Below are positions 34,801-64,000 of a stretch of DNA of 64,000 nt, in pieces. Source of the DNA: Sarcocystis neurona. Lineage: Eukaryota; Apicomplexa; Conoidasida; Eucoccidiorida; Sarcocystidae. The stretch is from NCBI GenBank assembly GCA_000727475.1, contig KL647293.1, positions 2,430,588-2,494,587 on the forward strand, in the 5' to 3' direction. Positions within the stretch are counted from its first letter, which is position 1, and each line of letters begins with the position of its first letter. The position numbers and the translations under genes are program-made. The notes beneath the pieces are model-generated. The model was not told the origin of the DNA, ran no database searches, and saw only the letters and a list, made by a program, of their open reading frames with translations.

Positions 34801-37800
34801 ATAAAAAAATGTATATGTATATATGTATAACATCAGATACACATACATATATACGTATACATATATTATATTAAGTAAATACAAGCATAAAAAATGAATA
34901 TATATATATATATATATGCACTCGTGACCCACAGACGTTTCGTCGAAGTAGTACATGACCATAATGAAGCAAAGAGATAAGACATATGCATATATATATA
35001 TATATATGCTTATGAATACACACCCAGTCAAATGAATATATACATATATGGGCAACTAAAAGATTAAATGTAAACATATATATTCAAATGAATAGATTCC
35101 CACTATGGGAGCAAAGAAACAAGAGAAATATCATCTATTATAGAGCGAACACACATATATGGAACTCTATATATCCTGCAGAATCGAACAGACACACACA
35201 TATACATACATTTATATGTGTATGTGCACAAGCATACATATACACTCTCATGTGCGTACTTGCAAATAATCAAATGCCTATACATAGATATATATATGTA
35301 TATATACATATACATATATATCTACAGAGAGAGACGAATACAAATATATATATATATATATATATATGTGTATATGGATATATGCAACAAGAACACACAT
35401 TCACACACTAACACACACACACACATATATTCTCGAATATATATATGTGGACATGCGTAAAAGTGGTTGCGTACGCCTGTTGTGGGAAAGTCACTTCTCT
35501 CACTTGGCCAAGAGAGGTATTTTGACACGCCAATGACAAGACATTGACCACCAGTACACACAAACACACACCCATATATACGTATACGGTAAATATATCT
35601 TTCTATGCACGCTGAACCACCGGTGTTTATGGTACGTGCATACGCTCAAATCCATATATATATACATATATGCATATATATATGTATGTGTCCCTGTATG
35701 CGTTTCGACAAATACACGTATTTTCCACACGCGCGGAATGACGGGGGATACAGCCAGAGAAAAGAAGGAAGAGGAATCCGTGGAAAGGCAAGGAGTGGCA
35801 GACTTACAGCAGCAGGTGGAGTTGCTGCTGCAGGACGAACAGCAGCTGGCGCTGTTGCTGCTCTGTGTCAGGGAGGTCGCGATCTTCTGCGTCGACGGGC
35901 TCGACCGCAACATCGCAGATGCCCAGCAGCAGAGAGCCGTGCTCCAGGGCCTTCTCTATACAGATCTGTGTTCAAATACCCATGACCACACACACACACA
36001 TATATATACATATATATGTACATATATACACGAATATACACATACGCACCCATACATACATTTACGCCACAACACGTCGTCAACTTACAGAAGAAATGTT
36101 TTGCTGCTGCGTGTGTGTCTTTAGCGACCTCGTGAAGAAGCCAACAAACAAAGATCCACATTTGCTTCTTTTTTCGAGGAAGACACATAGAACCCGTCAC
36201 ACAGGACACAATCGCCAGCGTATAAATCAGGCAAAAAGAACTGCTCGTCTATAAACTGAAGGTCGACGCGAGAGAAAAACAGAGTCACTGCCGAACGGAT
36301 GTCCCAGTGCACAGAGACGAAGCTGCGGTATCCCTAGAAAGCAAGAAGAAAAGTACGCACATGGCAGAACTACTTCTCTCGGATCACGAAGAAAGCTCCA
36401 TTTTCGCTGTGTTGGTGGAATCTTTGCAGTACGTGCTGCTGCAGTGGATCGCTGTGTAGCGCTCGCCGCCCCGCCGAGGCACAGAAGAGGGCAGATAAGA
36501 ACATGTCGAAGGAGAAGCCGGACGCAAGTTTTAGGCGTGCGGCTCCAGTCCTACGCGCTGGGGCGGTGGGCGAGCGTAAATTCTCCCGGAGACGCAAAGG
36601 ATTTACAGGCGTGCATGCGGCAACATCAGTAGACGAGGATAACGGGACTCAAAAGTGCGTCTATGTGTGTCGAAATGTGCGTGTGTTTTTGACGCATGCG
36701 CTTGCCGACGTACTCACATATTCGCTCTATCCTACGAAGAGCAATATCCAGAGAGAAGGGTGAGACACGTCCATGTACGACACATGTCTATGAAAAGCAG
36801 CAACTTCTGTAAGAGTGACGGCAGAAAGAGAAAAGACCGTAGAAGCGGTTGTTCTCGCCGTGACACTCTGCCCACGGCTTTTTGAGCAGCAACAGAGATG
36901 ATGCATCGGGTGGTAGGGGCACATCGCGAAGGCGACGAAGCAGCGACGAGATGAGGAAAAGAAGAAGAAAACAAGAGAAACGAAAAACAGAGAGACAAAG
37001 TTGGCGCGACGAACAAAACGAGAGTTCAGGGGGCGAAGGAGACGAGGGCAATAGGAGGGGGCGACGTTAACGAGCGACAGCAGCGCCCCCGCGACTTTGC
37101 TGCTGCGGTCCCGCGCTGCACGAGAGACACACACGCGACGTCGCAGAGGGAGACGGGAGGGGAGGGCAGCGGCGAGGAGCGCAGACGGAGACACAGAGAG
37201 AGCAGAAGGAGGCCAAGAGCGAGACAGAGGGAGATAAGGAAGGGAGGGGCTTTTTGAAGAAATGGAAAATTTCTTGGAATGTAGGTGGTGACTCACTTTT
37301 ACGCTGACGAAGCACGCAGGCAGCTCGGGATTCTGCGGCGTTAGCGCAGTCCGGAGGAACAGCACCAGACTTCTCTGCTGCGGGTGCCAGGGCTCCTGCT
37401 GCGGCTGTTCTTGCTCGTTCTTCCTCTGTCTGCATGGCCAGTTTTTGCTGCTTTTTAGTGAAGTTGCGCTCCATTTGCTGCTGCTGTCGCTGCGTCTTCT
37501 CTCTCGGTGCTGCTGCTTCTCTGAAAAGGAGATGCACGGCGTTCTCTCCGTACGTCTCTTTTCCCTCTCCGTCTCCTTGTGCAGGCGACCTGCTGCCGGG
37601 CGAGCAGACGCCGGGCGATTTGCACCAGCAGCGGACAACGCACCCGCCGTGGCAGGCAGGACAGACGCTGCAGCAAAAGCAGCAGAGGAAGACGAGAAGG
37701 AGGAGGTAGTCACTGCTACAGGGACCCAGCAGCGGGCTGTACTGGGAACTGCGATTTGCTGCTGCTGCTGCTGTTCCTGCTGCTGCTTTGGCGTCTGCGC

Positions 37801-40800
37801 TGCTGGTCGGAGACGCGATTTGTCCGGCAATTCTGGGGAAAGGGCAACTGCTGCCACAGGCGGTGGCTCGTCTTCCGCTTTCTCGTCTTCATCTGCAGCC
37901 GTCGTTCTTCTCGTTCTTGCTGCTCCTCCTGCCGAGGCGGGGGGCGGGGGGCTAACCTCTTCGTAGCGGAGCGTAGTGAGTGTGCGGAAGCGCCGCAACA
38001 CCAGCAGCAGCTGGTCGTGCAGCAGCGCTGCCCTTCCTACCGCCGTGTGGCCACGCAGCAGGAGCTTCCTCACACTTGCCATATCCGGAAAGTAGGAGAC
38101 GCCGTCTTCGTCTCCTTTCCAGTCTCCCAACACTCCTGCTGCCGCCTCTCCTCCTTGTCGATCCACTGCGTCAGTATCCGTGTGCGGCTGCTGCTGCTGC
38201 GGCTGTTTACTGTCGCTCGTCGCTGTTCGTTCTGCTGCTGCTGTTCCCCCTCCTCTTGCTGCTCTTGTTGCTCCTCGCCTTGCTGCGACCTGCTCTGGGA
38301 CAACAGCCCCACCAACAGCATGAGCGCTGTCACCGCTGCAGCGCGATCCCCTTCTGCTGCTGCTGCTGCTGCTCTGCTTCCCCCAGACAGCCGTAACCGA
38401 TCGACAGCTGCTCTTCAGCTCCTCTTCCTCCTCCTCCTCCGCTTCCTGCTCTTCGGTGCCGCTGCCGCTGCTGCTGCTGCTGCCGTGTGTGCAGTTGCTG
38501 CTGCAGCAGCTCGCCTCGACGTCGTCCCGAACCCTACGCTGCCCAGACTTCTTCGCTCCCGTCCTCCGCAGCACTTCGCTTCCCCACCCACACCCAGCAT
38601 GCCCACCACCAGCAACAGCGGCCGCAGTCACAGGAGCGGCAGCACGAGGAGAGAACGGAGCAACAGCAGCAGCAGCATCCAGCGTGTCGCGGTCTTGCTG
38701 CAAACTTCCTTTTTCTCTTTTTGCTGCTGCAGCTTCGTGGAAACGCGGAAGCAGCTGCTGAACGAGAAGGAGAATCGCACATCAAAATCCACACACGCGT
38801 CTCTACTGCATGCAAAAAATTAGTAATAACACATAAAACTCCACATACAGATACAGACGCCGACGCTACACACACACACATGCGCACAGACACACCGCCA
38901 GACCCTTTCCTACCTAAAGAAGGAAGGCGGCCTACAAAATTACATATAGGTATATGTGTACACTCACATATACACACATGTGTAGACGTGGGACAAATAC
39001 ATCCAGAAATTTATATATATGTTTGTGTGTACACTCGTATATATAGGTGTGTATGTGTTGGAGAAATATATGAAGGTCTCCATGCTACTTACACATAAAA
39101 CTTCACGGACACGTGTACGCACCGAGGCTACACACACGTGTACGCACAGATACACCGCGACAACCTTTCCCACCTAAGGAAAGAAGGCGGTAAACAAATA
39201 TATATATACATATATATGTATATGTAGGTTCATATACGTATGTGTGCATATCTAAAACAAATACAGAAAGAGTGCTATAGATATGAAAGTGAATAGAATA
39301 CATATATGCACGAATGGATGTGTACAGAGATAGACACCGACATACGTATAATATGTAGAAACACTAATATCCCGACAGGTGGATATATATATTGATGGAC
39401 AGATAGATACGGATGGACACATATGCATACACAGATATACATATAGATATATGTACAGATGGGTTTCTTCCTACGAACAGCCATATACGTATACGTGTAT
39501 ATATGCAACACTGTAGAGACGAATAGGAACACAGATAGATAGATATAGATACGAAGTTGTATCAAGTCAACGCATGATTTGTGAGCTGCTGTCGGTTCGG
39601 TGTCTCAGAAAAGAAAAGTGTTGCAAAGGAAGAAAGAATAGGCGAAATACTAACAAAGACAGAGAGGAAGAGACGGCGTGAGTTCGTTTATCTCCCGTGT
39701 CTCCCCGGCACCTGCTGCAGCGCATGTTACGGCAGACTCGGCGACACCGGAGGGGGGGCATGCAAATGTCAAAGGTCCTCTGCTATGCTGCTGTTGCTCC
39801 TGTTGCTGTTGTTGCTGCCGCCGCTGTTGCTGCTGCTGTTGCTGCTGCTGTTGCTGCTGCTGCACTCCTCCCAGCAAGTGTTGCTGCACCAGAAGGTCGC
39901 TGAGACGCTGCCGAAGAAGAAGAGACAGAGACAGCGACTTCTGGGAGAGAAGACTGGGACGCGGCAAGAAAGACGTGCGCAGGCCTAATGCACATTGGTT
40001 TATATGCGCATGTCTACTTCCTGGGCAGCCGATAGGGGGGGGCCGGCAACGGGAGGCAGTGCGCGCGTTGGACGTGAAGCTCGACACATACGCCTGTTTG
40101 TACGAGTCCTCGTCTGTTTGTGCGTACTTCCCTTTTCTCTTTCTCTTTTTCCAGATATACAGACGCATCTCTCGGACAGCTCTACATGTATACTGCATGT
40201 CCACATATATTCACGCAGATGCTGTACATATATATGTATATGTATGGACGGTGCATATCTGTGTCTAGCCGAGCTGCTACATACACATATATATATATAT
40301 ATATATGTTATGTATTTCCATATATTCATGCAGCTGATATGCATGTATATACACATATGTATGTACATCTGTATATGTACATACATGTTTACGGATGGTG
40401 CACACACACGTCTGTTAAAGCTGTTACTCTTGTACTTTCATATATCTATATATGTATAGACGTATGAGTAGTACATACCTATGTGTACTCGAGCTGCTAC
40501 ACACATATATACAGACGCATATATACGTGTATATGGTACATATCTTCTTATATTATCGCAACTCCCACATATATATATATATATATATGCGCTGCAAATC
40601 TACGTGTACTGGTGCAGCTGGCATATATATATGCGCATGTATATATTGACGGTATGAGATATGTACGTTGTACGGTTGTAACCTCCACGCTCTTTTGTGT
40701 GGGGCGCGCGTATTTGTGTGTGCGGAGGTGGCTCTTGAGAGCAGTTCGAGTATGTCACACTACTGCTGCTTTCCTTTACACATATATATGTATATGTGTA

Positions 40801-41185: not shown

Positions 41186-43427
41186 GGGAAGGGACAGATA
41201 TGGACGAGGGAGACACAAAGGAAGACTGAGACACAGAAAGAGAAAGATACGCACGTATATATATATATATGTGTACAAATATGTATATATAAGGAGAGAG
41301 AAAGGGGGCTACGCATGCGTATGCATGTGTGTGTAGGTGAAGAAAATATATACGTGTGTTGAAGCCGCGTGTAAGAAGGGGCATTCGGTATGGCGAAGGT
41401 ACCTGCAGCAGCGCGTCGAGAGACCGCTGAACGACCCGCAGCACATGTTGGCGGAAGAGATCTAGTTGCTGCTTCCATGACTCGTTGCTGTTGATCTGCC
41501 ATCTCTGCGGGGTGGGTGTTGTTGCTGCTGCAACAGCTGTGAGGCATTTGCTGCTGCGTGTGTGAAACTGCGCTGCTTTGGCTTTTCTCTTCTTCTCCTT
41601 TTTCTCTTCCTCTTCCTCTGGCCTCTCGTCCCCCTCCTCGGCTTTTTTCGGGCCTCGCCGTGCTGCTGCTGCTGCAGCGTCATCGCTAGCCGGCTGCGGC
41701 AGCCGCTGCGGGCTGCAGCAGAAAAATCTGCTGTTGCTGTTGCTTTCTTCGTCTGCAGTCTTCAGAAACGGGTAGGAGGTCGACAGCTCTGCTGCGTATA
41801 GCTCTGCCACGACTCTTGTCGTTTTGGTGCTCTCTCTTCTTCTGGCGGCTAGTACGGCTGCACGCGCGCGACTTTTTCTTCGGCTTGCTGCTGTGCTGCG
41901 GCGCTCAACACGTGCCTTGCTGCTGCCGCCTGCTGATCCTCCTCCTCCTCCTTTTCCTCGTTGCGGGAGTGCCGCACCCGTTGCTGCTTCTCGCAGTCGA
42001 CCTCCGCCTCCAGCGGCCGTCGCAGCAACAGCAGCAGCGTCCCTCGGCCGTGCCGCACAGAGACGCTGCTGCAGCAGCTGCCTGCGGTTGTTGCTGCTGC
42101 TGCTGGGACTGCTGTTGCCATCAGGGCAGCTGAATGAAGGACCACAACCGCCAACAACCGAAGAGGCCCTTCGAGTCGCAGAGACGCTGGAACTCTCCGA
42201 CAGAAGCAGCAGCTGCCGGTCCGCCTCTTCCCTATCCTCCTCTACTTGCTGCTTCTTCTTTCTCTTTTCTCTCACACCTGCGAGGCAGCGAGGCTGGCGC
42301 CAGTGGGTGACGCTGCCCACTTTCGAAACTCGCAGCAGAAAAGTCCCCACCTTCTGAGTTTTGCAGCTGCCCCTGCTGCTGCTGTTTACCTTTGTCAAAG
42401 TATCTCTCCCCGCCCTCTTGCCCTGCTGCTGCTGCATCTGGACGCGTCGCTGCTTCCGCCTTGGCGAGGACTGCTGCTGCTGCTGGAGCGTCGACTGCTC
42501 GTTGTTCATTTTCCGTCGAAACGGTTGATAACCTCCTCCTTGCTGCTGCTGCTGCTCCTGCTCTCGCCTTTGCTGCTGCTGGCGCTTCTTCTTGTCCGAC
42601 GTCCCGTGCTGCTGCCTCACCTTCGGGCGGGGAGGACGCCACAGCAGCAGCAGTCGCGTGGGAGGGGGCCACGTACCCCCACCACCAGCAGCGTCGTGCG
42701 CAGACGGTCGTGCACGTCCTCCGGTAGAAAGACAGGCGCATTTGTTCTCTTTGCTGCTGCTGCTGCTGTTGCTGCAGTTGGCCGGTGCCACGCCGCACAG
42801 AAGCGGCTCTGCCTCCGGAGGCAGCAGCCGCAGTATGGACTGCGAGCAGGGTACCCGCGCCGGCAAAGAACAAGCAGCAGCAGAAAAAGAGGAAAAAGAC
42901 TGGCTGCTGCTGTCTGCAGTTCCTGCTGCTGCCTCAGGAAGTCCGTCTTCGTCGCGTCTGCTGGGCTGTCGAGAAGCAGCACCGATAGCGGTGCAGCAGC
43001 TCGTTGCAGCACGTCCCACAACAACAGAAGTCAACGGCGAAGAAGAGACAGGGCTGGTCAGTGCGTGGAAGAAAATATAGGAGGCGCTCCTTTCTTCTTT
43101 TAATCCTTTCAGAAATCTTGCTGCTGTTGTCGTCAGCATTCCTGCTGCTTCTTCTCTGTCTATATCTCCTTCATCTGTACTTGCCGCTGCTGCAGACAGT
43201 CCCGCTATTGCAGTGGCACCTTGCTGCTGCTGCTGCTGGAAGTGCGTGGGGCCTCTGCTTGAAGACGTGTGGGGGCGCATGGCTGAATAAAGAGAGACGG
43301 GAGGGGGAGAGCGAGGCCAGGCGAAGGAGACTAGCAGCCAGCGACTGCTAAAAGAGAGAATTTTAACTCCGGAGAGTTGCTGCAGGGCAGACACGATCAG
43401 CAGCTTCTGTCGGCCGTCCGCGAGAAG
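31596..43427 (-). CDS. COG3: COG3/Sec34-like Golgi tethering subunit, many exons, provisional model
   Basis: COG3 is a lobe-A subunit of the conserved oligomeric Golgi complex, which tethers retrograde vesicles. Exons I can support, 5' to 3' on the minus strand: a stop-free block 43427-41403, then 40942-40802, 39907-39731, 38757-37297, 36333-36129 (3' edge uncertain), 35965-35808, 33332-33247, 32831-32745, 32660-32612, 32324-32236 and terminal 31846-31596 with TAA. The family evidence is the pattern IRSAVTLFF...IDEQFF, which matches the conserved RSG...EFF segment, and LRGLLCCFDTLNQAVRR then HFFGLS and GEQKLFF, which match the C-terminal segment of COG3. Phases agree from 32831 to the stop and across 40942-37297. 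Gln and Ala runs interrupt the conserved parts, for example 13 Gln near 39,860. The N-terminus, an exon near 36.5 kb and some frames are unresolved. Confidence 0.6.
34490..34925. repeat. Degenerate tandem array, about 90-bp unit, five copies
   Basis: The core agtgaatacacgcataaaaa recurs at about 34504, 34591, 34696, 34787 and 34874 (spacings 87, 105, 91, 87), separated by TA microsatellite and a gtgaacaccagatacac segment. Length differences come from the TA runs. It lies in an intron of the COG3-like gene. Confidence 0.7.
36129..36333 (-). CDS. COG3-like exon with the RS...EFF-type motif
   Basis: The acceptor CTTGCTTTCTAG is strong and the frame is open for 68 codons (YRSFVSVHWDIRSAV, then the IDEQFF motif, then LYAGDCVLCDGFYVSS). 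The downstream border is unclear: the frame stops at 36,121, while a second frame continuing HEVAKDTHAAAKHFF ends at a perfect GTAAGT donor near 36,083, so a further short intron may lie inside. Confidence 0.55.
36880..37290. other. Purine-rich (plus) / pyrimidine-rich (minus) intron tract
   Basis: Lies directly after the donor of the 37297 exon on the minus strand; the gene strand is C/T-rich for about 400 bases. It resembles the biased tracts in the TPI and helicase introns. Confidence 0.55.
37297..38757 (-). CDS. Large low-complexity exon of the COG3-like gene
   Basis: 1,461 bases, 487 codons, phase 0 at both ends. The acceptor is CTTCTCGTTCAG and the donor AAAA|GTGAGT. It begins QLLPRFHEAAAAK, runs through Ala, Ser, Glu and Gln tracts, and contains one ordinary helical island, YFPDMASVRKLLLRG to LRRFRTLTTLRYEE, which is probably the conserved part. 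Opposite-strand frames here are shadows of the CTG/CAG tracts. Confidence 0.7.
38825..39330. repeat. Two-copy duplication, period about 262 bp
   Basis: Acataaaact at 38831 and 39093, then matching gctacacac, gcacagayacaccgc, cctttccyacctaa and gaaggcgg segments in both copies. It sits in the intron between the 38757 and 39907 exons. Confidence 0.65.
39731..39907 (-). CDS. Poly-Gln exon of the COG3-like gene
   Basis: 59 codons, phase 0 at both ends. The acceptor is preceded by an excellent C/T tract (CTGTCTCTTCTTCGGCAG), and GTAACA is the likely donor. It begins RLSDLLVQQHLLGGV and continues with 13 Gln, two Arg and further Gln. It joins in phase to KLTG of the exon ending at 40802. Confidence 0.65.
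40180..40660. repeat. Diverged repeat with gagctgctacayacaca cores
   Basis: The cores at about 40270 and 40491, with surrounding TATATGTATA and GACGTATG segments, suggest an old duplication of about 220 bp within microsatellite DNA. No exon was seen. Confidence 0.4.
40802..40942 (-). CDS. COG3-like exon with basic and Ser-rich start
   Basis: 47 codons, phase 0 at both ends, from AERMEEKETERRRRR to HKYIYAVARAQKLTG. The second half can be aligned with the COG3 segment that follows the FRQ...L region. The acceptor is weak (GGGACTGAG), so the 5' edge is tentative; the donor is GGG|GTACAC. Confidence 0.55.
41403..43427 (-). CDS. Stop-free Gln/Ser/Ala-rich block, probable COG3-like 5' region
   Basis: Opens after the acceptor AGTGTCTCAG (LLADGRQKLLIVSALQQL) and stays open to the strong donor CTGCAG|GTACCT. 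The last part, ESWKQQLDLFRQHV then LRVVQRSLDALLQ, resembles the COG3 segment with a conserved F(R/K)Q. The middle holds Gln, Ser, Ala and Lys/Glu tracts, and one or more introns may be hidden inside. Confidence 0.55.
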
Positions 43428-44603: not shown

Positions 44604-44672
44604 CTTTATATCTTCGTGCGATGATTCAAGTCGACGCAGTTCCTCGTGTGTGTGCTTCAGCAGCAGCTCGCT
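44604..44672 (-). CDS. Small exon, charged amphipathic helix
   Basis: 23 codons, phase 0 at both ends, SELLLKHTHEEL to SSHEDIK. The acceptor follows a CTG/CTC tract (GCCGCTGTTGTTTCAG) and the donor is AAAG|GTGAGA. The upstream CTG repeat (44,680-44,800) would be poly-Leu if coding, but is better read as the intron pyrimidine tract. It could belong to the COG3-like gene or to the gene with the giant exon. Confidence 0.6.
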
Positions 44673-47935: not shown

Positions 47936-48038
47936 CTTTTCAACTTCTTGCTTGCAGCGCATGTTGACGAGGTGCAGACTGCGGAGCCGGTGACGTCGCT
48001 GCTGCAGCAAAGCGTCGCGTCGACGCTCCAGCGCCGCT
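47936..48038 (-). CDS. Small coiled-coil exon with a probable GC donor
   Basis: A strong acceptor (CTTCTTCGCTTTGCTGCC then AACACACAG) starts an exon that encodes AALERRRDALLQQRRHRLR and ends NMRCKQEVEK. It begins with one base that completes a Ser codon with the two bases left by the 50500 donor. The end fits AAAG|GCAAGT, the consensus of rare GC-AG introns; no GT donor fits as well. Confidence 0.5.
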
Positions 48039-49959: not shown

Positions 49960-50300
49960 ATGTATATATATATGTATGTATGTACATAGGTGTATATGTA
50001 CATACGTGGACATGTGAGTGAGGATACATATAAATATTATGTACACAGGTGTATATGCAAATACATATATACGTGGGAGAGAATGTATATATATATGTAC
50101 ATAGGTGTGTATGTACATACGTTAACATGTGGGACAGGATACATATATATATAGATATATGTATAATGTCCATATGTGTATATGCAAATACATATACACG
50201 TGAGAGAGGCTGTGTATATTTACATGTACATCGGTGTACATGTATAACATATTTGTGTGGCCGAGGAGAGAGTGGTGGATATTCACGTACATATATGTGT
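49960..50300. repeat. Tandem repeat, about 130-150 bp unit, two to three copies
   Basis: The segments gtacataggtgtatatgtacat, a gtgggagagaatg or gtgagagaggctg segment, and gtgtatatgcaaatacatata recur in the same order from 49,974 to 50,290. It is a diverged array in non-coding DNA. Confidence 0.55.
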
Positions 50301-50499
50301 GCCAGCGGATCGGATATATCAGTATGTGCGTATGCGTGTGTGTACACATGTATATATATATATATACGTATGCGACGGAAAACAGACATATGTGGAGAAC
50401 ACGGGGACCTGAAGCTGCGATGGAGGAGACGGCGTTTTCTACGATGGAGAAGTGAAGAGGGTGGGTCTCCCCTCCATCTTCCCTCTGCGTGTCTCTTAC

Positions 50500-50618
50500 G
50501 AAATATCGTCGTTTTCCTCGAGAAGTGGACAAGCGGAAGAGAAGTCGTCGAAAGCTGCAGACTTCTCCTCAGTTGCCGAGGTCTCGAGGAAATTCATGGC
50601 GTCCTGCAGCACAGCCGC
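50500..50618 (-). CDS. Small acidic exon following the giant exon in phase
   Basis: The acceptor GCTGCTGTGAG is preceded by a CTG-repeat tract. The frame reads AAVLQDAMNFLETSATEEK and ends PLLEENDDI with two bases over, at the donor C|GTAAGA. It is in phase 0 with the donor of the giant exon at 52673 and in phase with the exon starting at 48038. The strands and phases agree, but transcript evidence is lacking. Confidence 0.55.
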
Positions 50619-51315
50619 CTCACAGCAGCAACAGCAGCAGTGGCAAAATTCCTTCACTTCATACACTTCTACACACATCCATACACCGAGCGGTTTACTT
50701 TTCTCTATCGCCTTCTTCACTCAGTTCTACACACATATATATACAGACACACACACACACATACACATTTGTATATACGTCCGTTCACGTATACTCAAAT
50801 AAATATACACAGATACACACATATACACAGGCACACACACACGCACGTATATATATATGTGTATAGGGACATACATAAGTATACATAGAGACACGCAGAT
50901 GCACTTTTTCTCTATTCGTCTACATCAATGAATTAGATATATACAGACAGATTACCAGACATATACGCACACGTAGAGAGATATGAATATATCTCCACAT
51001 ATACACAGAAATTTACATATATCCGGTGTCATGTCCAGACACACAAACGTATAGATATGTGTCTGTGCAGTCATACAGACAGCTGTTCCCTATCCGTATC
51101 TCTATATCTATCCATATCTGCCTATCTATCTATGTCTATTTATCTATGTCTATGTATCTGCTTCTATCTCTATATATATGCATTGGAGGAGTACGTAGGG
51201 AAGTCTACACCGTCATGTATAAGTGAAAAAAGTGTAAACTCAAAACAAGAGGATAAATGCCCGATATATATATACATACATGCGTACATTAGACACGGAC
51301 GTCCATATACACGTC

Positions 51316-51354
<39 letters not shown>

Positions 51355-51374
51355 AACTCCGCACGTTGTTGGGG

Positions 51375-51515
51375 GGATACGGCATCGCAGAGGATGCCTG
51401 GTGGCCGCAACTACTCCTTTGAAACGAATTTTCACGAGGTGAGTTGTCCCGTCATTTTCTGCGGGGAGTTCAAAATCGGGAAGACAGAAGAGGAGGTTGA
51501 GGAAACAAATCCCCG
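51375..51515. other. Ambiguous exon-like segment, strand undecided
   Basis: On minus, a very good acceptor (GATTTTGAACTCCCCGCAG at about 51,475) opens a frame NDGTTHLVKIRFKGVVAATR. On plus, a frame MPGGRNYSFETNFHE ends at a GTGAGT donor (51,440). Both look real in isolation, and neither fits the phase of flanking exons. Confidence 0.3.
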
Positions 51516-52672
51516 CACAAATGCCTTTTCTCCCGGTGCAACAGCAAATCATACGAGACGCACAGAAAGACACATAAACACACACGTGCAGATATCTACG
51601 TATATACATATGTGAAATATACGTGTGCACATACGATACATGTATATGGATTCATACGTGAGGGATTGAAAGATATTCACACATACATATATATTTATAT
51701 GTGGACACAATATACATGTGTATGTACATATATAGGATAGACATACCAGAGTCACGCGTCCATCCACATATACACTCATGTGTATATATATATGCGTACG
51801 TCAATGTTTGCATAAAATATACATATATACATATGTATACATATGCGTGTGTACTGCATATATAGACGTGAGACGAAGATGCATCTATACGCATATGTGC
51901 AGAGGAACAGACATAAAAATAGAACCAGATGTACACGAAGACAGATGGTTATAAGACACATATACATATATATGTATACAGGTGTGTATATCAATTATAT
52001 ATATATCGAATACATATATATGTGTATATGTATATGAGTTTACTTGTGTGTGAGCATAGCTTTGTGGAGGGGCAGACATGAAGATAGAGAGCAAGAGATC
52101 AGCATTTCTGAAGAAGTACACACGTAGGGGGGACGGGAGTTTAAATTATGGACGGGATGGAGAGCTGCTCCTGCACTGGAAGACCGCGAGGTGAATACGG
52201 AGGATCGGAGAAGATATAAAGGGACAGGAGAAGGAGAAGCGAAAATGAGTAGGGGATAGTTGTGCCTGTAGACTCTGCTCCACCGCAAAGACGACAGCTG
52301 CAGCGACCTCTCCCACAAACATATATATATGTGTATATGCATGTGTCTGCATGCAGTTCTATGGATAAGCCTGTATACATACATATACACATGTACGTTT
52401 CTATACGTGCATGCACATATATGTGTATGAAGAGGCCTGCGTGCGCACATACATACTACACACGTGTGTATGCCTGAATGGCCCAGCGCGCAAACACACA
52501 CATATACATATACCCACACACATATATATGTATGGGTGAATGGATCTGCGCGCACACACACAGATATGTACGTATACTCACATATATATTTATACAAATA
52601 GACACGCCTGTATAGCCGTGTGCGTCCGTAGATGTATACAATGAAGTGCCTTTACATAGGCGGCTGCCTCAC

Positions 52673-54302
52673 CTGAAAAGTGCGGGCTTTCTGGTGGAGA
52701 ATTTCGTGCTGCGCTGCGTAGAAATCTCGTAGAACCCTGCAGCTCTCTCCCACGAGCCACTCCTTCGCAGGATATTCTTCGCCTGCTGCTCCTGTCTCCC
52801 TCTCTTCTACGCCGTCGCCCACGACGTGCTGAATCTGCTGCTGCTGCTGGGGCGTCAGCGGCTGCCGATGCTGCGGCTGCTGCTGCTGCTGCTGGATCTG
52901 CAGCTGCTGGTGCACCTGCTGCTCCTGTTGCTGGTGCATCTGCTCCTGTCGCTGCTGCGTTTGCCGCAGGTCTTGTTGCTGACGGTTGAGCAGCAGCGGG
53001 CGCTGTGGTAGCGGCGAGGTTGCAGAGACGGAGACAGGAAGTTTGGGCTTCCCTGGGGGATTGCAGCGGACGTGTGCTTTGCTTCTAGCAACTGTTTTAA
53101 GAGAAGACTTAGGATTTGAAGAAGAAAGAAAGTCAGCTGCTGCTCGAAAAGAAGAAGAATACTTAGTCGGGAGAGAAACTGCGGCTCTCGTGGAGACTTT
53201 GCCAGCGCGGCAGGAATTTAACGTTCCCTCACAGAACTTCCTCGCTTTGCTGCTGCCTTCTGCTGCTGCGGCCGGTCTTGCTGCTGCTACTGCCGTTGCC
53301 GTTGCAGTTTCCCCTGCTGTTCGACCTGCTGTCCCTGTCGCTGCTCCTGCTACTGCTGGTGTTCCTGCTCCTGCTACCGCAGCTGCTGCTTGCTTTGCAG
53401 CAGCAGTTTGTAGCGCATTCATGGAGAAGCCTGCAGCAACCGTTCGCCCAACGCAGCGCAGCAGCTCTTCTCCCTCTTCTGCCTGCTGCTGGTACTGCTG
53501 TGGCAAGGAACGGTGCTGGTGCTGCTGTGACAAGGAACGCAGCAGCTGCTGTTCTCTGCCCCACTGCTGTCTTCGGTGCTGCTTCTCCTCTTTTTCCGCT
53601 CCTTCCGCGTCGGACGGGTGGTGGGGATGCTCCCGTTCCTTCGTTGCAGCTACGAACTGAAAATGCTGCTGCTGCTGCTCTCGCTCGGAAAACTGGCGTT
53701 GCGGCTGCTGCTGCTCGGGGGAGAGGAGGGCGGGAAGAGGGGGGAGCAACAGCTGCTGCTTTTGCTGCACTTGTCCCACGTGGTTTTCTCCAGGGGGACG
53801 GGATTTTCCTGCCACTGGGAAGTCACCGTTGCTGCTGCTGTCTCGTCTCCGGAGAGACGCCGCCATCGGAAGCTTCCCTCCCACAACGTGCGCCTCAGGA
53901 AAGGAAGGAGAATAAGTGCTTTCCTTTCCTGCGGCAGCAGCAGCATCAGTGTGACCAGCCGCAGCAACCGACAAAGCGGCTGTCTCGCCCCTGTCATCGG
54001 CTACAGCTGCGGAAGCAGAAATTCTCCGCTTTTCGCTGAGGAGAACTGTAGCGGACATCTGCTGCATACGCAGCGCAGCGGCAGAGACAGTCAGACGAGC
54101 ACGCTCTTTTCCTATCGCATCTGTAAACCGCTCCTGCTGTTGCTGCTGCTGTTGCCGTTGCTGGTGCTGCTGGTGCTGGTGCTGGTGCTGGTGCTGGTGC
54201 TGCTGTTGCTGGTGCTGGTGCTGGTGCTGGTGCTGGTGCTGCTGTTGCTGGTGCTGCTGTTGCTGGTGCTGCTGTTGCTGGTGCTGCTGTTGCTGGTGCT
54301 GT

Positions 54303-54334
<32 letters not shown>

Positions 54335-57300
54335 TTGTTGCTGCTGTTGTTGCTGCTGTTGCACCTGCTGCTGCTGTTGAACCTGCTGCTCGGCCTCGTG
54401 CTGCTGCAGGGTTGCTCCTGCGCTAGGAGCTGGAGACGGCTCTTGCTGAGTCTGCAGGCAGACCCTTTTCGCAGATCCACGCAGCAGCTGTTGCTCGCAG
54501 AGAAGCTCTGGCGTTCCTGCGGCTGCCACTCTTCTTCCTCCCTCTACGGCAGGACTTTTCCTTGTGTGTGCTTGCAAGAACGACCTCTCCTGGTTTTCCT
54601 CTTCCTTTTCTTCATTTGTTCTCAAAGTCTCCATCACAGGAGACCCTCTGTCTGCTGCTGCTTCCGCTACGCCGTGCTGCCAGCGCATCGCTGTCTGGGG
54701 TCGAGACTCCCTCTGCAGCAGCTGCTGCTGCTTCTTTGCCTGATAGGGGGTTTGCTGCTGCTCCTGCTGCTGCAGCCCCGGCACCGCCGCCCCCTGCTGC
54801 TCGCTGCTCTGCTGCTGGCGAAAGAGCTGCTCCTTGCGAGAATCTTGCTGCTGCTGCTGCCCGGCGTGTGCCTCCTGAATTCCGCTAATCGCTCCGTGAC
54901 TCAGCAGAGACGGAGAAGAAGCTGCTGCTGTGTTTTTCGCCAACAAGGCGGAATGCACAGACTCCAGGGGTCTCGTCTCGTGCCGCCAGCAGCAGTTGCT
55001 GCTCTGGCTTGTCCTTACAAGTGCCGTCGAAAATCTTGCCTGTCCACACAGACAAGTCCTGCTGTACGCATTCAGTGAAGTTGCAGTCTCCTCTGCTGCT
55101 GGTTGGCCCGTCCCCCTCGCGTCTCCCTCTACGACGCACCCGCTGCTGTTTCTATTCATCGGCGCTGTTTTCTTCAGTGCTTCCGCTCTCGTTGTTGCTG
55201 GTGCTCCCGTCTCCCCACACGCATGTAGCACGGCGACAGCACAGCTGCGGCGTGTCCTTCTGCCTGCTGCTGTTGCCGCTGCTTCCTCCTCTGCAGCTTC
55301 TCTGCCGCTTTGTCCCTCGAGATGAAGCATATGTGCTGCTGCTCGTGTTGTCCCTACTGATTCTTCTGCTGCTGTCACTCCCACGGCGGAGACTTCTGCA
55401 GCCTCTCCTCCTGCAGCTTCTGGCAGAGTGTCTCTGCAGCAGGCGCTTCTCTGATCTTCTGTGGGTGCTGTTGAAGCGGCAGCAAGTGCTGCCGCTGTCT
55501 TTACTGCCGTTGCTGCTGCTGTTGCCGGTGACTTCCACCCTGCGTTTACGACGGCGTCTCTTTCGGAGAACTCTCCCCTTTGTCTACTTGTCTCGGCGTC
55601 GTCTGTCCTCGGGTCTGCTGCTGCTTCACTGGTCAACTGCTGCGTCTCCGTCAGCGCTGCTGCTACTGTTGTTGCGGCTACCGAGGCCGCTCCTGCTGTC
55701 GTGATGTCGAGAGAAGGTGACACGCTTGCTGCTGGTGCGACCGCAAAATTTTCGGCTGTTGCTGCTTCTACAGATCCCCCTGCCACTGCTGCTTCTGCTG
55801 CTTCTGCTTGTCTTTCTATCTGCGTAGATGCGACTGCGCGAGCTGGTGCAGCGCCTGTCTCTCTACTTCCGGCTGTTGCCAATTGCTGGACCGGTGCTGT
55901 TGCGCGCGGCGTTGTCGTCTCCCACTCCCCCGAGAGCCCTCTTCGAACTGTTGCTGCTGCTGCTGCCAAGCTAGCTCGTGCCGCTGCTGCTTCTCTTGCT
56001 GCTGCCGCTTCCCTTGCTGCTGTTGTGTCTCTTGCTGTTGGTGCTGTCCGTCCTGCAGGTCCGGCGGCCGGTTCTGCGGCTGTTGCTGTTGTCACTTGCA
56101 GCAGGTCGCCCCCAGTTTTTCTGCTGCTGCTGCTGCTGGTGCTCACTCTCTCTCTGCTGCCGCTGCTGCTTGGGAACATCGTTCCGCCCACTTGGCGGCC
56201 GTACTGGGCAAGGATGCGCCCTGCCAGTGCCTCTGCCTCTGTCTCCTCCTCTGTCGCTGTTTCTCCTGCTGTCCCTGCACCCTGTCGCCGCTCTCTCGGT
56301 GCTGCTGCTGCTGTACAACCTGCAGTGCCAAATCGCCTCAGCAGCGAAGACAACGCAGCAAACGCTGCTGCTGCTTCTTCTTTTTCCCCACTCCTCTGCG
56401 GTTCCTCTCTTCTTCCCGCTGCTGTCCCAGACGCACCTGCGACAGCATCTGCTGTTGGTGTTGCTGCTGCTACAGAGTCTCTTTCTGCTGCTGCTGTTGA
56501 GGAAACTGGAGAGCCACTTGCTGTTGCTGCTGTTCGGGCTAAGTAGTAAGAAAAAGGGAGGGCACCTGCTGCTGCTGTTCCTCTTTGTGTGGCCTCTCCG
56601 TCTGCTGCTTCTGCATCTCCTGCAAGGAATTCACATCTCCCCTCTGTCGCGGATGTTTCATCTGGTGCTGGCAAGCCTGCCGCTACTCTCGCTGCTGCTG
56701 TTGCCGCCGGTACTGCTACTGCTGCTGCTGCTGTTGCTGCTGCTGTTGCTGCTGGTGGTCCTGCTGTTGCTGCTGCTGCTGTTGCTGATGTTCCTGCTGC
56801 TGCATTTGCAGGGGGAGCACACGTTGCAGGGGAGCTTCTCCGTACTGCTGCTGGTAGCAGCGAAGTTCTTCTCGGCAGCACGTCGTCATGATATGGAGTA
56901 TCTGTTGTTGCTGCGTCTTTCTCTGCAGTTGAATCTGCTTCTCCTCCGTAACCTTCATCTCCTATTGCTGCTGTGGTTGTCGCTATTGTTCCTGCAGCTG
57001 CTGCTTCTTCTTCTGAATCGTAATCTGCTCGCTCTGTGACGGCTGCTCTACGAACGGCTGCAGCTTCTTTCGCTGTGCATGCTTTTGCTGCTGCGGCTTC
57101 TGCGTCCTCTGTTTCTGTGTCTCCTTCTCCGACGGTGTCTCTCCCTGCTGCTGCCTTTCCGTCTGCTGTTGCTGCAGGGTCACTGGCAGTTATTCCTGCG
57201 TCTGAATGACCGTTGATTTCTTCTCTTCTGCCTGGGAACTTTTTTGCTGCTACGCCCCGGAGGAATGCCGCCGCTGCTGTTGTTCCTGCGCCAGCTGCTG

Positions 57301-58485
57301 GTGCTGCTGCATCTGCTGGTGCTGCTGCACCAGCTGATGCTCTTGCGTCTGCTGCTGCTGTTGCAGTGTTCTGCGAAGCGCCCGCTGCCAGGACTCGGTG
57401 GAACTGCGGCTGGGCGTGTTTCTCATACATGTCGGAAGAAGAAGACGAAGAAGCAGGAGGAGCAGCAGCAGCAGGCAGAGAGACTGAGCAGCTAGCTTCA
57501 GAATCCTGCTGAAGAACCGCATGCAGTTGCTGCTGATAGAGAGGAAGAGCAGCTGCTTCACCAACGGAGGGAACCGCTGCGCAGCGGGGGGGCAGGTGGT
57601 CAGGAAGGCCCAGGTGCTGCTGCAGGACAGCAGGGACTTTACCAGCAGCAGGGAAGAGACGCAACAAAGAAGCAGCAGCTGCAGCTCGAGCCGCGGCTGA
57701 GGTGAGCGGTGCAGCAGCAGAAGTAAACGAAGGAGCAGCATGTGGATAGCTAGCACCAGAAGCAGAAGCATCAGCAGCAGAAGCGTCAGCAGCAGCAGCG
57801 GAAGAGGCAGAACCAACAGCAGCGGCTCCAAGAAGAGGACGAGTAGGAGCATCAGCTGCATCAAGAGAAGAAGGAGAAGGAAAGGGAGGACGGGCAGTCG
57901 CAGCAGCAAGGGAAGGTGTAGTAGCAGCATCGACATCAAGTGGAGGAGAAGGAGCAGCAGCAGCAGCGGCGACAACAGTGGGCATGCAAGCAGCAGCAGA
58001 AGTAGGCGTCCCAATGCCAACCCCGACAGGAGTTGCGTTAAGGCGTGGAAGAGCACCCGCAACTTCGGCAGATTCACCACCAGCGCTGTCTGCATGCGCA
58101 ACAGCAGCGGCCGAGGAGGAGGAGGGAGAGAAAGCGACAACGGGAGACACAGCAGAGGCAGCAACAGCAGCGGCGGACCCAGAATATCTATCTATCTGAC
58201 TCGAGTTCAAGGAGGAAGGAACTGCGGCAGCAGCACATTGAAGCCCTCTCCATGTTGTGGCAGTTTCTGCTGCCGTTTGCTGCAGAAGCGGGACAGCTTC
58301 GGCTGTAGAGTCTGGAGTCTCTCGCAGGCCTGTCCTACTGAAAAGCAACTGCAGTGCATCCTGAGCCCGCGGCTGCACTTCCGTTGCTCGCCGCTGCGTC
58401 TCCGGGTGCTGCTGCTGCTGTTGTTCGCGATGCTGTTGCTGCTGCTGTCGCTGCTGTTGCTGGTGCTGTTGCTGCTGTTGTTGTC

Positions 58486-58541
<56 letters not shown>

Positions 58542-61500
58542 TGCTGTTGTTGCTGCAGTTGCTGCTGGTGTGGCTCTTCTTGTTGCTGTTCCTGCAGCTG
58601 CCGTTGCTGTAGCTGCTGTTGCTGTAGCTGCTGTTGCTGTAGCTGCTGTTCCTGAAGTTCCTGTTGTTGCTGCTGTTGTGCCTCTTGCTGTTGCTGTTGC
58701 TGCAGCCGTTCGTGTTGATGCAGCCGTTGCTGCTGCTGCTGCTGCCGTGTGTGCGGATGTGGGGCTGCGGCAGCACCTGCAGAAGACAGGGCTCCGAGAG
58801 ACCCTGTCGAAGATAGAAAAAGCAGCTGCTGCTGTGTTCCCACCGACGCTGGACTCCCAAGGAAACTGCTGCTGCTGCGACGATATGTAGGACGCTGGTG
58901 CGCCGCCTTCTCGTCACCCCACGGAGACGAACGTTTGGTACGTGGACTTGCTGCTGTTCTTACTGCTTTTGTTATAGACGCTGCTGCGGCACCTTCTACT
59001 GACAAATCTACCCTTCTCACAAGGAAAGCTGCTGCTGCTTCCTCTGCGTCAATTGCTGCTGCTGCCTCTCCAACTGGCGCTGCCGCTATCTCTGAGTCAA
59101 TTGCTGCTGCTATCTCTCCATCTGCTCCTGCTGCTGCCGCCTCTGCATCTGCTGCCGCTGGTGTCGCCTCCGCATCTGCTGCTGCTGCTGTCGCCTCTGC
59201 ATCTGCTGCTGCTAGTGCCTGTGCGCCAATTGTTGCTGCTGCGATCTCTGCGTCTGTCGCAGCTGCTGCTGCCTCTGCATCTGCTGCAGTTGCTACCGCC
59301 TCTGCATCTGCTGCTGCGGGTGCTGCCTCTGCGGGTGCTGCCTTTGCATCCGCTGCTGCGGGTGCTGCCTTTGCATCCGCTGCTGCGGGTGCTGCCCTTG
59401 CATCTGCTGCTGCTGCTGTCTCTGCGTACCCTGCTGCTGCCAGCTGGGTGTGATTGGCATCTGCAACAGATCGGGAAGCTGCTTGGGCATCGCCGGCTGC
59501 TTTCCCTGCCGCCGCCGGTCCTTCTCTCGTTGCTGTTACTGCGTCTGTGCGGTGCAAGCAAAGTGCTCCTGCGTCTTCTGTTGCTGCTTCTGCCTCAGCT
59601 GCTTCGGTTGCTGCTGCTGCTGTTTCTGCTGCACCCGTTATTGCCGCTGCTGCTGCAGCTGCAAGCCGCGGTCCCAGCCTCGCATGAACGGCAGGCTGCT
59701 GCCCTGTTGTCACTCCGTCTGTTGCCGCTCTGTCCGCTGCTGCGGTTGTTCTCCTTGCTGCTGTACGACTGGCCGCGGTATCAGCAGCTGCTCCTGCAGC
59801 ACTTCTTGCTGCGGGCTTTGCTGCTGCTTTCTTCTGCAGCTCATGTGCGGAGACAGCGTCACCTCCTGCAACGCCTGCAGCACCTGCGTTCTTCCTCTCA
59901 GACCCATTTCTCTTTGCTGCTGCTGCTGCTGCCTCTACAAACAATTGAGACGCATGGCCTTCCTGTCTTGCGAAAGCTGCTTCTGCCGGCACGCCGACTG
60001 CCCGCTCAGTTTCTTCTTCTGCTGCTTCAACAGGAAGGACAAGCAACATGCGCGACTCTCTGTCACCCAGTGAAGCAGCGGGAAGAGAAAAGGTCTCTGC
60101 GCTGCTGCTCTCCGTCTCTTGTCCCTTTCCTTCACTTTCTGCTGTTGTCCGTGCTGCAGCATCTTCGCTGCTGCATTCGGTACGCTCACGGTCTACAGCC
60201 GGCGCAGGCGACCTGCCTGCAGCTGCTGATGTTGGACGGGGCGCTGCTGTCGAAGTAGATAATGCTGTAGAAGCTTTTAGAGCGGTTGTTCCTGCTGCTG
60301 CTGCTGGCAAAGATGGGGAGACTTTCGCTCGGTCAGCGGTACGCCCACACGGAGAGCCACTCTTTCTCTTCTTTGTAGCGCTGCTGCTGCTGCTTCGAGC
60401 GCGCAGGCCCTTGGCGACAGCCGCGAGTTCTGCGGCGGAGCGCTGGTCCCCTGAGGCCGCCGCAGCCGCAGCAGCGGCAGCGGCCGCGGCAGAGGCGGCA
60501 GCTTCCGCCACCCTGGCCGCTTCCGCTGCTTGCAATCCCGCAGTCTCTTCTAAGAAGTGCGGCGCGAAGGGGCTCGAAGGCACCGCAGCAGCAGGACGCT
60601 TCCGTATGAGGGCCGGAGACGGCGGAGACACCGGCACTTGCTCGGGCGGCATGGGGAAGTGCCTCGGGGAGAGGGCCACGAGCAGCGGAGAGAGAGACGT
60701 AGAAGACGCAGAGACGGCAGCGGGAACACCAGCAGGGAGACCTGCAGGGACAGCAGCAACCAGCAAGTTTCCCGGTGCCGAGGCAGAGGGAGGAGGAGGA
60801 GCAGCAGCAGCACCGAAGACGGCGTCGCGAGCGGCAACAGCGGCATCAGTCACAAGAGATGGACGATTGTTCGCAGCAGGAGCAGCAGCAGTGCAGGAGG
60901 AGCTGGTTCTCGGGAGGGATTGTCCGTCGGTTGCGGTCGGCGAAGACGCAGGAGCAGCAGCAGCCGAGCCAGGGAGAGCTGCAGAGGCACGAACGCATGC
61001 AGCAGCAGTCGGAGAATAGGGAAGAAGGCCAGCAGGAAACTCAATCGCAGCAGAAGAAGCTCGATTTACTCGCTCTTCACTTGCAGCAGCAGAAGCAGCC
61101 GATAGTCTAAAGGATTGCATACAACGCGGGGACGCCTGCAGGGCTGCAGCAGACTCTGGCGTGTCGCATACAACGACGCACAGCTGCGTGAGGCGTCTCT
61201 CCATCTGTAAACCAGCAGATGTTTCTTCGTTCCTGTCGTCGGCCCCGCGTTGCTCCTGTCGCTGCTGTTCTTCCTGCTGTCGCTCCTGCTCTGCCGGCTG
61301 TCGCTGCTGCTCTTCCCGCTGTCGCTGCTGCTCTTCCTGCTGTCGTTGCTGCTCTTCCTGCTGTCGTTGCTGCTCTTCCTGCTGTCGCTGCTGCTGCTGT
61401 GGGTGCAGCTCCGTTTCAGCGAAGGGAGGATCCGAGGGCTGTCTTGACCGCCATGAAGGAGACGCGAAGGGCGACAGAGACGAGACAGCCACGCCTGCAA

Positions 61501-63715
61501 CAGGACAGGCAGCGGCAAGAGAATCTTCAGTAATAGCAGCAGCAGCAGAGAAGGCAGAAGAGGCCAGTGCCAGTCCAGCAGCAGCGGCAGTGACTCTTGC
61601 AGCCACAGGAGGAGAGAAAGTAGCAGCAGAGACGGCGGCCTGGGCATGAAGCGACGGTGCAACTTCTGCCACCTGCTCGGCAGGCGCTGCAACACGAGGA
61701 GAAAAAGCGAAGCCGCTCCCGCTGCTGCTCCTTTTGTTGCTGTTCCGGCTGCTGCTGTTCTTCCTGTTGCTGCAGTCGAAGAAGAGGAGCCGGCGACGGA
61801 GCGACTCTGTAGGGCTGGCTTCCTTCGCAAGCAGAGAAGATGGGCTGCAACAAGGTGAGACGACGTTTGCTGCTGTTGTCTGCTCCTCGGGAAGGGCAGC
61901 CACGCAAAGTTGTTGCCGCTGCATCTGCGTCTGCTGCTCCTGTAGGTGCTCAGTTTGCTGCTGTGTGTCTCGATTCAACAACCTCTCCTCCTCCTCCTGC
62001 TGACCTCCCAGGTCAAACTGCTGCAAGGGCAGCAGACCCATCTCGTTCTCCTGCTGCTGCTGCCCCTCTGGCACGTCTTGATGCTGCTGGGGTTCCCACT
62101 GCTGCTGCTGCAGGCCGCGTCTCTCTCGCGCGTGCAGAGCTGCTGCCGCTGCAGCTTCGAAGGAAGCGTCGGCAGGTCGCTGCGTCCGTGAGCAGCATAG
62201 ACTGTCCGGGCTTTCTCTTACAGAAACCTCTTCATTTTCGTCAGCACATCCTGCTGCTGTGGGGCTCTCTCCTTCTCTCTGGAACTCTTTTCTCTCTCTG
62301 TCTTCTTCTTCCCTGTCACGCGGTGCACCTGCTACATCCTTCGCGTGCGCTACCCACCACCTTCCTCTCTCTGCTGCTGTCTTTGGGACCGCTGCTGCTG
62401 CCGCTGAGACTTTTGTTGCCGCTGCTGCAGTTGTTGCTCCTGCTGATGCCGCTGTTGCTGCTGCTGCTCCTTTTGCAGTTCCTGCTGCTGCTGCTGCTTT
62501 TGCTTCTGCAGCACGGGGAGATTTCTGCTCGGTTTGCAGCAGACGGGAAGAACTGCCTCTTTCTCCTACGCCTCGTGCTGCGTCGATATTGTCTCCTCGA
62601 GCCTGCGCAGCAGGAAGTGCAGCAACAACTTCACGCTGATTTTCTTCTTCTTCTTCTCCTTCGCCTCCTACCTTTTCTTCGCCTTCCTGCAGAAAATGAA
62701 GAGCAAGAAGGTGGCCAGGCGCGGGAGGAGACACCCGACCCGCATGGGCGCATCTTGCTGCTGCTGCAGTCCCTGCTTCGCCGGTCGCTGCAGTTGCTGC
62801 GTCCTTCCTCTCGAGCTCCTCCTCGCCGGCCTCCTCGTCTAGAGGTTGCTGCTGCTGCAGGACGAAGAGACGTTTCTCCGGGTGCTGCGGCTGTTTTGTC
62901 TCTCGAGTGCAGACGGTACCTCCTGCAGCAGCAGTCGCCAACGGCGTGATCCCCGCGCCGTCGCTGTTGCTGCTCACTTCGCAGCGGGCAGTCGGTTTGC
63001 TGCTCCTGCTGCTGCTTCTGCTCGTGCTGTCGCCGCTGCCCCGGTGACTGCTGCTGCGCTCCTCCCAAAACATGCTGCTGCTTGACGTGCTGCCTCCTTT
63101 TTCTGCTTCGCTGCTGCTGCTGTAAGCAGACAAAATGCTGCTCCCCTCGTTGCCGCTGTTGCTGCTCGCATATCTGCTGCTGCTACTGCTGTCCTTCTGC
63201 CTGCTGCTACACTTGCTTCTGCTGTTTCTTCTTCGTGTGCCTCTCCTGCTGCTGTTGCTTGTCAGGCAGCCGCTGCCGCTGTCGCTGTCCCACCTTCTGC
63301 TGCTGCCGTCGGACACAGGACTTTGTTCCTCAACGCGTCCGCCTCTGCTAGAAAACGCAAGCCTGCTGCTGCCGCTGCTCGGCCTTGCCCTGCTCTCGCT
63401 GCTGCTGCATGCGCTTCCGCCGCTGCTGCTGCCCTGCCGTGGACTCCCTGTCCTGCTGCTGTTGCTGCTGCTGTCTGCAGCTCGTGTCGCTGGTGCAGCA
63501 GCAACAGCAGCAGCACCGGCAGACAACCTCGTGTTGCTCTCGAAAGTCCACACCCCCGGTGCAGACGGGCAGCCGTCGTCGTCTCCTCGGTTTGTACGGA
63601 GAAAAGACGGAGACAGAGATGCGCTGCATACACACACACAGACAGGACGCGTACGCCCAGCTGTTCCTTTGATGCGCAAAGACAAATAGATTGACAGACA
63701 CGAAGAGAGAGGCAT
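52673..63715 (-). CDS. Giant Gln/Ala/Ser-rich coding exon, 3,681 codons without a stop
   Basis: Open from ATG 63,715 to the donor CTTTTCAG|GTGAGG at 52,672; no other frame in the region stays open nearly as long. Product from the N-terminus: Ser/Arg-rich; long Ala-rich stretches with AADAEA-type repeats (59,010-59,430); a QQRQQEE repeat (61,220-61,390); a poly-Gln region (58,400-58,750); a second Gln region with His-Gln alternation (54,120-54,420); then a more ordinary C-terminal segment, EYPAKEWLVGESCRVLRDF then YAAQHEILHQKARTFQ. No known domain was recognised. The true start is uncertain: a C/T tract and AG near 63,590 could make this an internal exon. It may be its own gene or the 5' exon of the COG3-like locus. 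The protein would be largely disordered. Confidence 0.8.
54120..54420 (-). repeat. CAG/CAC tract coding poly-Gln with His-Gln alternation
   Basis: Within the giant exon: a run of about 20 Gln, then QQQQH units four times, then alternating HQ. Codons are mostly CAG and CAA with CAC/CAT for His. The alternating block has a 6-base period and the QQQQH block a 15-base period. Confidence 0.85.
58390..58750 (-). repeat. CAG/CAA tract coding the longest poly-Gln region
   Basis: Gln-rich for about 120 codons, with an uninterrupted stretch of roughly 25 Gln near 58,510-58,585 followed by Arg- and His-interrupted runs. CAG and CAA are interspersed, which should slow slippage compared with a pure CAG run. 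Confidence 0.85.
59010..59430 (-). repeat. Ala-rich octapeptide-type repeat (AADAEA units)
   Basis: About a dozen units of the form AAxADAEA/ADAKA in tandem, each 18-27 bases long and GCA/GCT rich. The regular Asp-Ala-Glu spacing distinguishes it from plain poly-Ala and would favour helix. Confidence 0.75.
61220..61395 (-). repeat. QQRQQEE heptapeptide repeat
   Basis: Seven to eight tandem copies of a 21-base unit coding EEQQRQQ, ending in EQERQQEEQQRQEQ. The charged heptad-length repeat predicts an extended single helix or coiled coil within the otherwise Ala/Gln-rich protein. Confidence 0.8.
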
Positions 63716-64000
63716 ACGCAGATATATATGTAGAGAGTTTTACACATATCTATATATATATAAAGAGAGGTAGAGAGGCGAATGTACACATATACATACA
63801 TATATATAGATAAATAGATGGATACATCCATATAGACACCAATATACGTAGACGTACATATATATATTCATAGAGAGAGTGTGTCATGGGGAAGGATACA
63901 GATTGAGAGAGAAAGAGATAAAGAAACGGAGATGGAGAAGCCTATACATATATGTGTAAATACGTAAGTACACTGTAGAAAACGCATAGAGAGATACGCA
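63716..64000. other. TATA/GAGA microsatellite DNA upstream of the giant exon
   Basis: Contains TATATATA, ACATATACATA and AGAGAGAGA stretches. Either promoter and leader of the giant gene or an intron upstream of its first recognised exon. No exon was seen. Confidence 0.4.

Follow-up and report, generated by a model that had tools for sequence, protein, structure and literature searches.

An 11-kb coccidian exon as the candidate disordered arm of a KNL1-like kinetochore scaffold

Giant exons on the minus strand

We analysed a 64,000-nucleotide stretch of contig KL647293.1 from a coccidian genome (here called the window), in which an 11-kb exon on the minus strand and a series of smaller exons downstream of it fairly likely belong to one gene for a scaffold resembling the outer-kinetochore protein KNL1. 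The minus strand is free of stops from 52652 to 63739, a length of 3,695 codons, and the five remaining frames over the same interval contain 42-72 stops apiece, with a longest run of 515 codons. In 400 Markov simulations matched to the base statistics of the stretch and read in all six frames, the longest frames were 487 codons at first order (200 runs), 696 at second order (100 runs) and 753 at fifth order (100 runs). The residues encoded are dominated by Ala (22.6%), Gln (10.3%) and Ser (9.8%). An earlier inspection of the letters alone, referred to below as the sequence-only reading, had described a long open frame amid frequently broken ones, and the simulations and stop counts bear this out.

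The borders proposed at that time need revision. Translation had been thought to start at 63715, but the residues following this codon, MPLSSCLSIYLS...VCVCVC (MPLSS...VCVCVC), appear to be read-through of a TG-rich intron ending in tgtatgcag. Judged by its splice signals, the exon probably begins at the acceptor at 63623 (tgtatgcag/c, phase 2) and not at an earlier ATG, and it ends at a plausible donor of phase 0 at 52673 (cag/gtgagg). Nor is it the sole giant exon. A second, of at most 1,589 codons, is found on the same strand in the 10 kb adjoining the window (frame L009; from 65551 to at most 70319 in extended coordinates), with its first Met at codon 55 and a donor of phase 2 at its end (gaagaaag/gtaagg). 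The candidate intron between them, set by acceptor and donor phases, covers 63624..64000 and continues to extended coordinate 65550. Since the donor phase at 65551 matches the acceptor at 63623 and the two exons join into 5,240 codons with no stop, the 11-kb exon probably spans 52673-63623, that is 10,951 nucleotides or 3,650 codons plus 1 nucleotide joined to further exons, in place of a protein of 3,681 residues.

The 11-kb exon would supply the main part of a disordered Gln/Ala/Ser-rich arm. Its earlier description as largely disordered coding sequence is supported: over both giant exons together (5,240 residues), an entropy cut-off classes 62% as of low complexity, and the remaining 38% lie above it. 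Among the repeat classes listed earlier, pattern searches confirmed runs of Q23, Q21 and A12, an H/Q array and three QQRQQEE copies, but AADAEA-like units were seen by eye only; they are imperfect, and a pattern search of both giant exons found no tandem AADAEA copies. The last 30-40 codons before the donor do mark the onset of ordinary sequence, and the final 30 (EWLVGES...TFQ) open a presumed coil.

Repeat phase and translation

Thirty-two CTG runs of at least three units occur in the two giant exons, 31 of them in the alanine phase, one in the cysteine phase and none in the leucine phase (p 3.5e-14, a nominal value because runs may share ancestry). The CAG runs number 32 in the Gln phase, 47 in the Ala phase and 20 in the Ser phase. 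Because nearly all CTG runs are in the Ala phase and none in that of Leu, acceptance of a repeat depends on the residue encoded. This phase bias is the best sign of translation within the sequence itself and reflects selection at the protein level. Growth of the arm is best explained by CAG-type triplet expansion combined with selection against Leu and Cys runs, a reading supported by these phases; the arm would have lengthened by CAG/CTG-type expansions tolerated almost only in the Gln, Ala and Ser phases. Coding repeats of the CAG type similar to these are described for Eimeria (PMC7564333). Repeats also dominate searches with the DNA: a 528-base piece from the 3' end of the 11-kb exon had at least 85 other genomic matches driven by repeats, some within the same exon (40 of 453 candidates scored).

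Downstream exons and their Eimeria relatives

A query assembled from the exon islands matched an Eimeria protein fragment, P0002 (E 7.2e-10, 52% identity across 15% of the query). This fragment led to three full-length proteins, P0003-P0005, from Eimeria flavescens (2,196 residues), E. praecox (2,059) and E. brunetti (1,994), which include Efla_006283 and are annotated as hypothetical. The searches scored the 7,984 and 7,995 top word-sharing candidates in set length ranges, so that absence of Toxoplasma and Plasmodium proteins from the results is uninformative. A search with residues 3630-3681, the last 52 of the 11-kb exon, gave no match.

The relatives combine a disordered arm, which carries SILK and RVxF motifs, with helices and a C-terminal domain. 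One SILK and one RVxF motif were present in all three full-length proteins, at a site about 370-400 residues in and not within the first 70, and the arm extends for 1,322-1,484 residues up to a Glu-Trp (EW) pair. Helices were predicted in P0002 at residues 51-83, 89-149 and 152-232, parts of them at low confidence. The C-terminal domain was predicted with moderate confidence to have an RWD-like fold, and human KNL1 is among its structural matches, together with VIA-align rows of similar Z for GCN2, RNF25, the Fanconi core, the inner kinetochore (CCAN) and Mediator. We take the Fanconi, CCAN, Mediator and LTN1 chains among these rows to be carriers of RWD-type domains. A candidate first RWD segment, LLADIRHKES...AWPRS, is also present, modelled with a confidence score (pLDDT) mostly <40. 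Pfam gave no match in the four relatives, and PDB sequence searches gave no useful match. In P0004 (E. praecox), residues ~1255-1310, directly after SWVDYREERLRE, are a probable retained intron, and conserved pieces are missing from P0003 and P0005; gene-model errors are the likely cause.

Firm homology in the window lies in two minus-strand exons. The exon at 41403..43427, identified by tblastn and a hidden Markov model (HMM), carries the first conserved segment, LLADGRQKLLIVSALQQLSGV...AWPRSPP, at 43302-43427, followed by Gln-rich inserts and the end ...VVQRSLDALLQ, and would contain the candidate first RWD domain. Its conserved segment is 49-52% identical to P0003-P0005 (tblastn 43427-43302, E 1.4e-6 to 3.1e-6) and 38% identical to P0002 (E 2.6e-5), and the Eimeria C-terminal profile matches the exon with an independent E-value (iE) of 1.6e-7. 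The exon at 37297..38313, with a candidate 5' border and likewise found by tblastn and HMM, encodes the initial portion of the C-terminal RWD-type domain (YFPDMASVRKLLLRGHTAVGRAALLHDQLLLVLRRFRTLTTLRYEE ... LVLFLRTALTPQNPELPACFVSVK); here identity to P0002 is 62% (38091-37957, E 1.5e-6) and the profile reaches iE 1.3e-13. When the 94-residue C-terminal piece was searched against the whole genome (123 Mb, 74 contigs), this locus scored E 1.1e-11 against E 0.02 for the other of the two candidates scored. That second, weak match (G000:C8:498535-498729, minus strand, 38% identity) may be another RWD protein or a chance hit. The order of the two tblastn stretches agrees with that in the Eimeria proteins.

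An exon at 35808..35965, placed by HMM, holds the next part of the C-terminal domain (ICIEKALEHGSLLLGICDVAVEPV...). On its own, 35965-35816 gave iE 0.005 with the C-terminal profile and 0.0002 with a profile of the last domain, and fused to the preceding exon it aligned without gaps (iE 2.9e-8). The complete spliced C-terminal model scored 96.1 bits against the Eimeria profile. A profile search of 30.0-35.8 kb did not recover the 3' tail of the domain. A different last exon at 36124-36333 (GYRSFV...SSRGR-stop) was rejected because the profile joins 37297 to 35965 without a gap. Between the two exons of firm homology, an ag acceptor and reading frame suggest a possible Gln-rich exon starting RLSDLLVQQHLLGGV, with candidate borders at 39665..39907.

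Three candidate small exons, all on the minus strand, would carry the coil from the 11-kb exon to the first conserved segment. They encode DAMNFLETSATEEKSAAFDDFSSACPLLEENDDI(S) at 50500..50603 (ag/gt borders, phase 0 in and 2 out), (S)AALERRRDALLQQ...CKQEVEK at 47936..48038 (phase 2 in and 0 out, with a GC-type donor, gcaagt) and SELLLKHTHEELRRLESSHEDIK at 44604..44672 (phase 0/0). The third, when fused to the exon that follows, aligns with Eimeria ..EIRGFxxTSGDLR-LLADIRHK... All five junctions between 65551 and 43427 agree in phase, the small exons having been chosen by eye with phase in mind. Another piece, 44954-44992 (LEAEQLYTRTNFC), was discarded as an exon for its phase misfit with the next exon and its disturbance of the coil length. 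Both rejected pieces were still within the query that found P0002 and within the spliced Pfam query, and the PDB queries contained 44954-44992 in one case and 36124-36333 in another.

Linking the giant exons to the downstream exons

Because no stop precedes a good donor, the 11-kb frame must splice to exons downstream. The distance from the EW pair near the end of the 11-kb exon to LLAD is 122 residues in our model, compared with 123 in three of the four relatives and 106 in the fourth, in which the gene model is one piece short. From frame need, phase and spacing, we infer that a splice connects the giant exon with the KNL1-like downstream exons. Added up by hand, starting at the upstream exon's first Met and using candidate positions for several borders, the parts amount to at least ~6,340 residues, versus ~2,000-2,200 in Eimeria. 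Most of this difference is in the arm, which runs for ~5,160-5,210 residues to the EW pair here.

A probable KNL1-like scaffold

According to PMC9252888, KNL1 is a mostly disordered protein that has a coil and, at its C-terminus, tandem RWD domains; its N-terminal part docks protein phosphatase 1 (PP1) and Bub1-Bub3. SILK and RVSF bind PP1 and are both switched off by Aurora B (PMC6715587), and MELT repeats recruit Bub3-Bub1, being common but altered in some lineages such as Arabidopsis (PMC12595034). The arm, SILK and RVxF, the helices and the RWD-like domain occur together in the Eimeria family, so KNL1 is the best reading of that family and hence of this locus. We consider it fairly likely that this locus specifies an outer-kinetochore scaffold of the KNL1 type, with the 11-kb exon supplying the greater part of its disordered N-terminal arm. 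The locus shares with KNL1/Spc105/Spc7 a long disordered arm, indicated by composition (its A/Q/S-rich low-complexity share), and a C-terminal domain of predicted RWD fold; in the Eimeria relatives, SILK and RVxF motifs are present and helices are predicted as well. The locus differs in having no MELT motif found, no Pfam-level similarity, an arm of ~5,200 residues and SILK and RVxF motifs that were located in the Eimeria proteins, there beyond the first 70 residues, and not in this copy. With P0002-P0005 it has in common the C-terminal domains, the order of parts and Gln/Ala-rich arm repeats, whereas the islands of the much shorter Eimeria arms are not recognisable here. The sequence-only reading could name no function for the protein; the downstream exons and the Eimeria relatives now indicate a KNL1-like kinetochore scaffold.

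We regard the locus as KNL1-like and a probable orthologue, not a proven member. It is probably the coccidian counterpart of KNL1/Spc105 and the same as AKiT1 (AKiT1-KNL1), to which we liken it by taxon and expected role. Apicomplexan KNL1 is already recognised, since a Plasmodium paper writes AKiT1 with a superscript KNL1 (PMC10499817). Open-literature searches combining AKiT1/KNL1 with Toxoplasma or Sarcocystis returned no Sarcocystis KNL1 paper among the matches listed, which were seen in part. Apicomplexans are reported (PMC9252888) to have lost several canonical kinetochore parts, for example the Mis12 complex.

A protein of this layout would sit at the kinetochore. The C-terminal coil and RWD-type domain or domains, encoded by the small exons from 52.7 to 35.8 kb, would anchor it there, which we think likely from the predicted fold, and the arm would project outward. 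By analogy with Eimeria, where the SILK and RVxF motifs could dock PP1 and so oppose Aurora-type kinases at spindle attachment, we lean towards PP1 docking by the arm in this species too. MELT-based checkpoint recruitment is unlikely. A more specific and rather speculative possibility is a MELT-free, phosphatase-only and checkpoint-independent tether of >6,300 residues, its arm ~3.5- to 4-fold longer through runaway trinucleotide expansion filtered for Gln, Ala and Ser, and its length free to drift. The KNL1-like reading gives a giant anonymous coccidian gene and its unnamed Eimeria relatives a testable identity. It suggests that apicomplexans keep the phosphatase-docking layout of KNL1 with arm length nearly unconstrained, a natural test of how much arm length matters in a kinetochore scaffold.

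Several results limit this interpretation. The weakest step is the link from exon to coil, which is made without sequence similarity: the coil did not align significantly with P0002, P0004 or P0005 (150, 1,209 and 358 of 2,000 shuffles, respectively, scored as high), and the Eimeria arm profile did not match this arm. Codon scores give the three small exons weak support, with 20 of 577 open control windows as high for 50500..50603, 14 of 577 for 47936..48038, in which another frame is nearly equal, and 53 of 736 for 44604..44672; the two rejected pieces scored similarly (37/918 and 22/250). The opposite strand of 35808..35965 reaches iE 0.0044, so this exon is weak on its own. The MELT pattern M[DE][LIVM][ST] occurs in neither the four relatives nor the two giant exons, and SILK and RVxF were not found in the 5,240 modelled residues. 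A loose SILK/RVxF pair upstream, SLLR...RVLF at ~70.55 kb, is within chance (106/500 shuffles). Pfam Spc7 (PF08317) had no match in the genome, in a search with weak controls, and Pfam had none in the 11-kb exon, three downstream minus-strand frames or the spliced pieces. A search for Bub1/Mad3 gave no match either in this genome or in the control genomes; Ndc80 gave a partial one here.

Alternative readings

That two adjacent genes are present, one comprising the giant exons and coding for an unrelated coccidian protein rich in repeats, the other made up of the KNL1-like exons from ~44.7 kb down, we consider rather unlikely. The arm and first coil exons have no sequence similarity to Eimeria, and between the 11-kb exon and 43427, where firm homology begins, lie ~9 kb containing only small exons. 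However, the need of the 11-kb frame for downstream exons, the fit of phases at every model junction and the near-identical EW-to-LLAD spacing all join the two parts, and the Eimeria coil is likewise preceded by a long disordered arm.

Less probable still is an RWD protein other than KNL1, from another kinetochore, Mediator, Fanconi or ubiquitin-pathway family, that has a long repeat arm. The spread of structural rows at similar Z would suit such a protein, as would the Pfam results for the relatives and for Spc7 and the absence of MELT from the relatives and giant exons, but SILK and RVxF in every full-length Eimeria protein, together with arm, helices and RWD-like domain, are the KNL1 combination. 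An untranslated by-product of CAG repeats is very improbable, for although CAG-type runs are common nearby (15 CAG and 7 CTG runs of at least four units among the introns and exons of 36000-52600), such a by-product is opposed by the stop-free join of the two exons, a frame far beyond the simulated maximum, the Ala phase of the CTG runs and the 38% of residues above the low-complexity cut-off. An HSA/SWI-SNF affiliation, prompted by the look of the last codons, was dropped once the Eimeria relatives appeared, with no dedicated search.

Source genome and neighbouring genes

The DNA had been attributed to Eimeria. The genome contains 20 matches to the SRS domain (PF04092) and none to the TA4-type antigen PF11054, a search without a positive control; we take PF11054 to be an Eimeria marker family. 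On these domain counts the source is probably a sarcocystid and not Eimeria; SRS genes are reported for T. gondii, N. caninum and Sarcocystis (PMC12132954). Several of the SRS-domain matches lie inside a single 7,628-residue open frame near a contig end (G000:C4:15764-22528, minus strand), which exceeds the frame of the 11-kb exon.

Elsewhere in the window, the plus strand carries a DEAH-type helicase gene in exons at 17291-23181 (Helicase_C, HA2 and OB_NTP_bind) and, at 27303-29363, a frame of 687 codons that contains a class 3 lipase domain. A tRNA-Gly gene (TCC) lies on the minus strand at 25684-25755.
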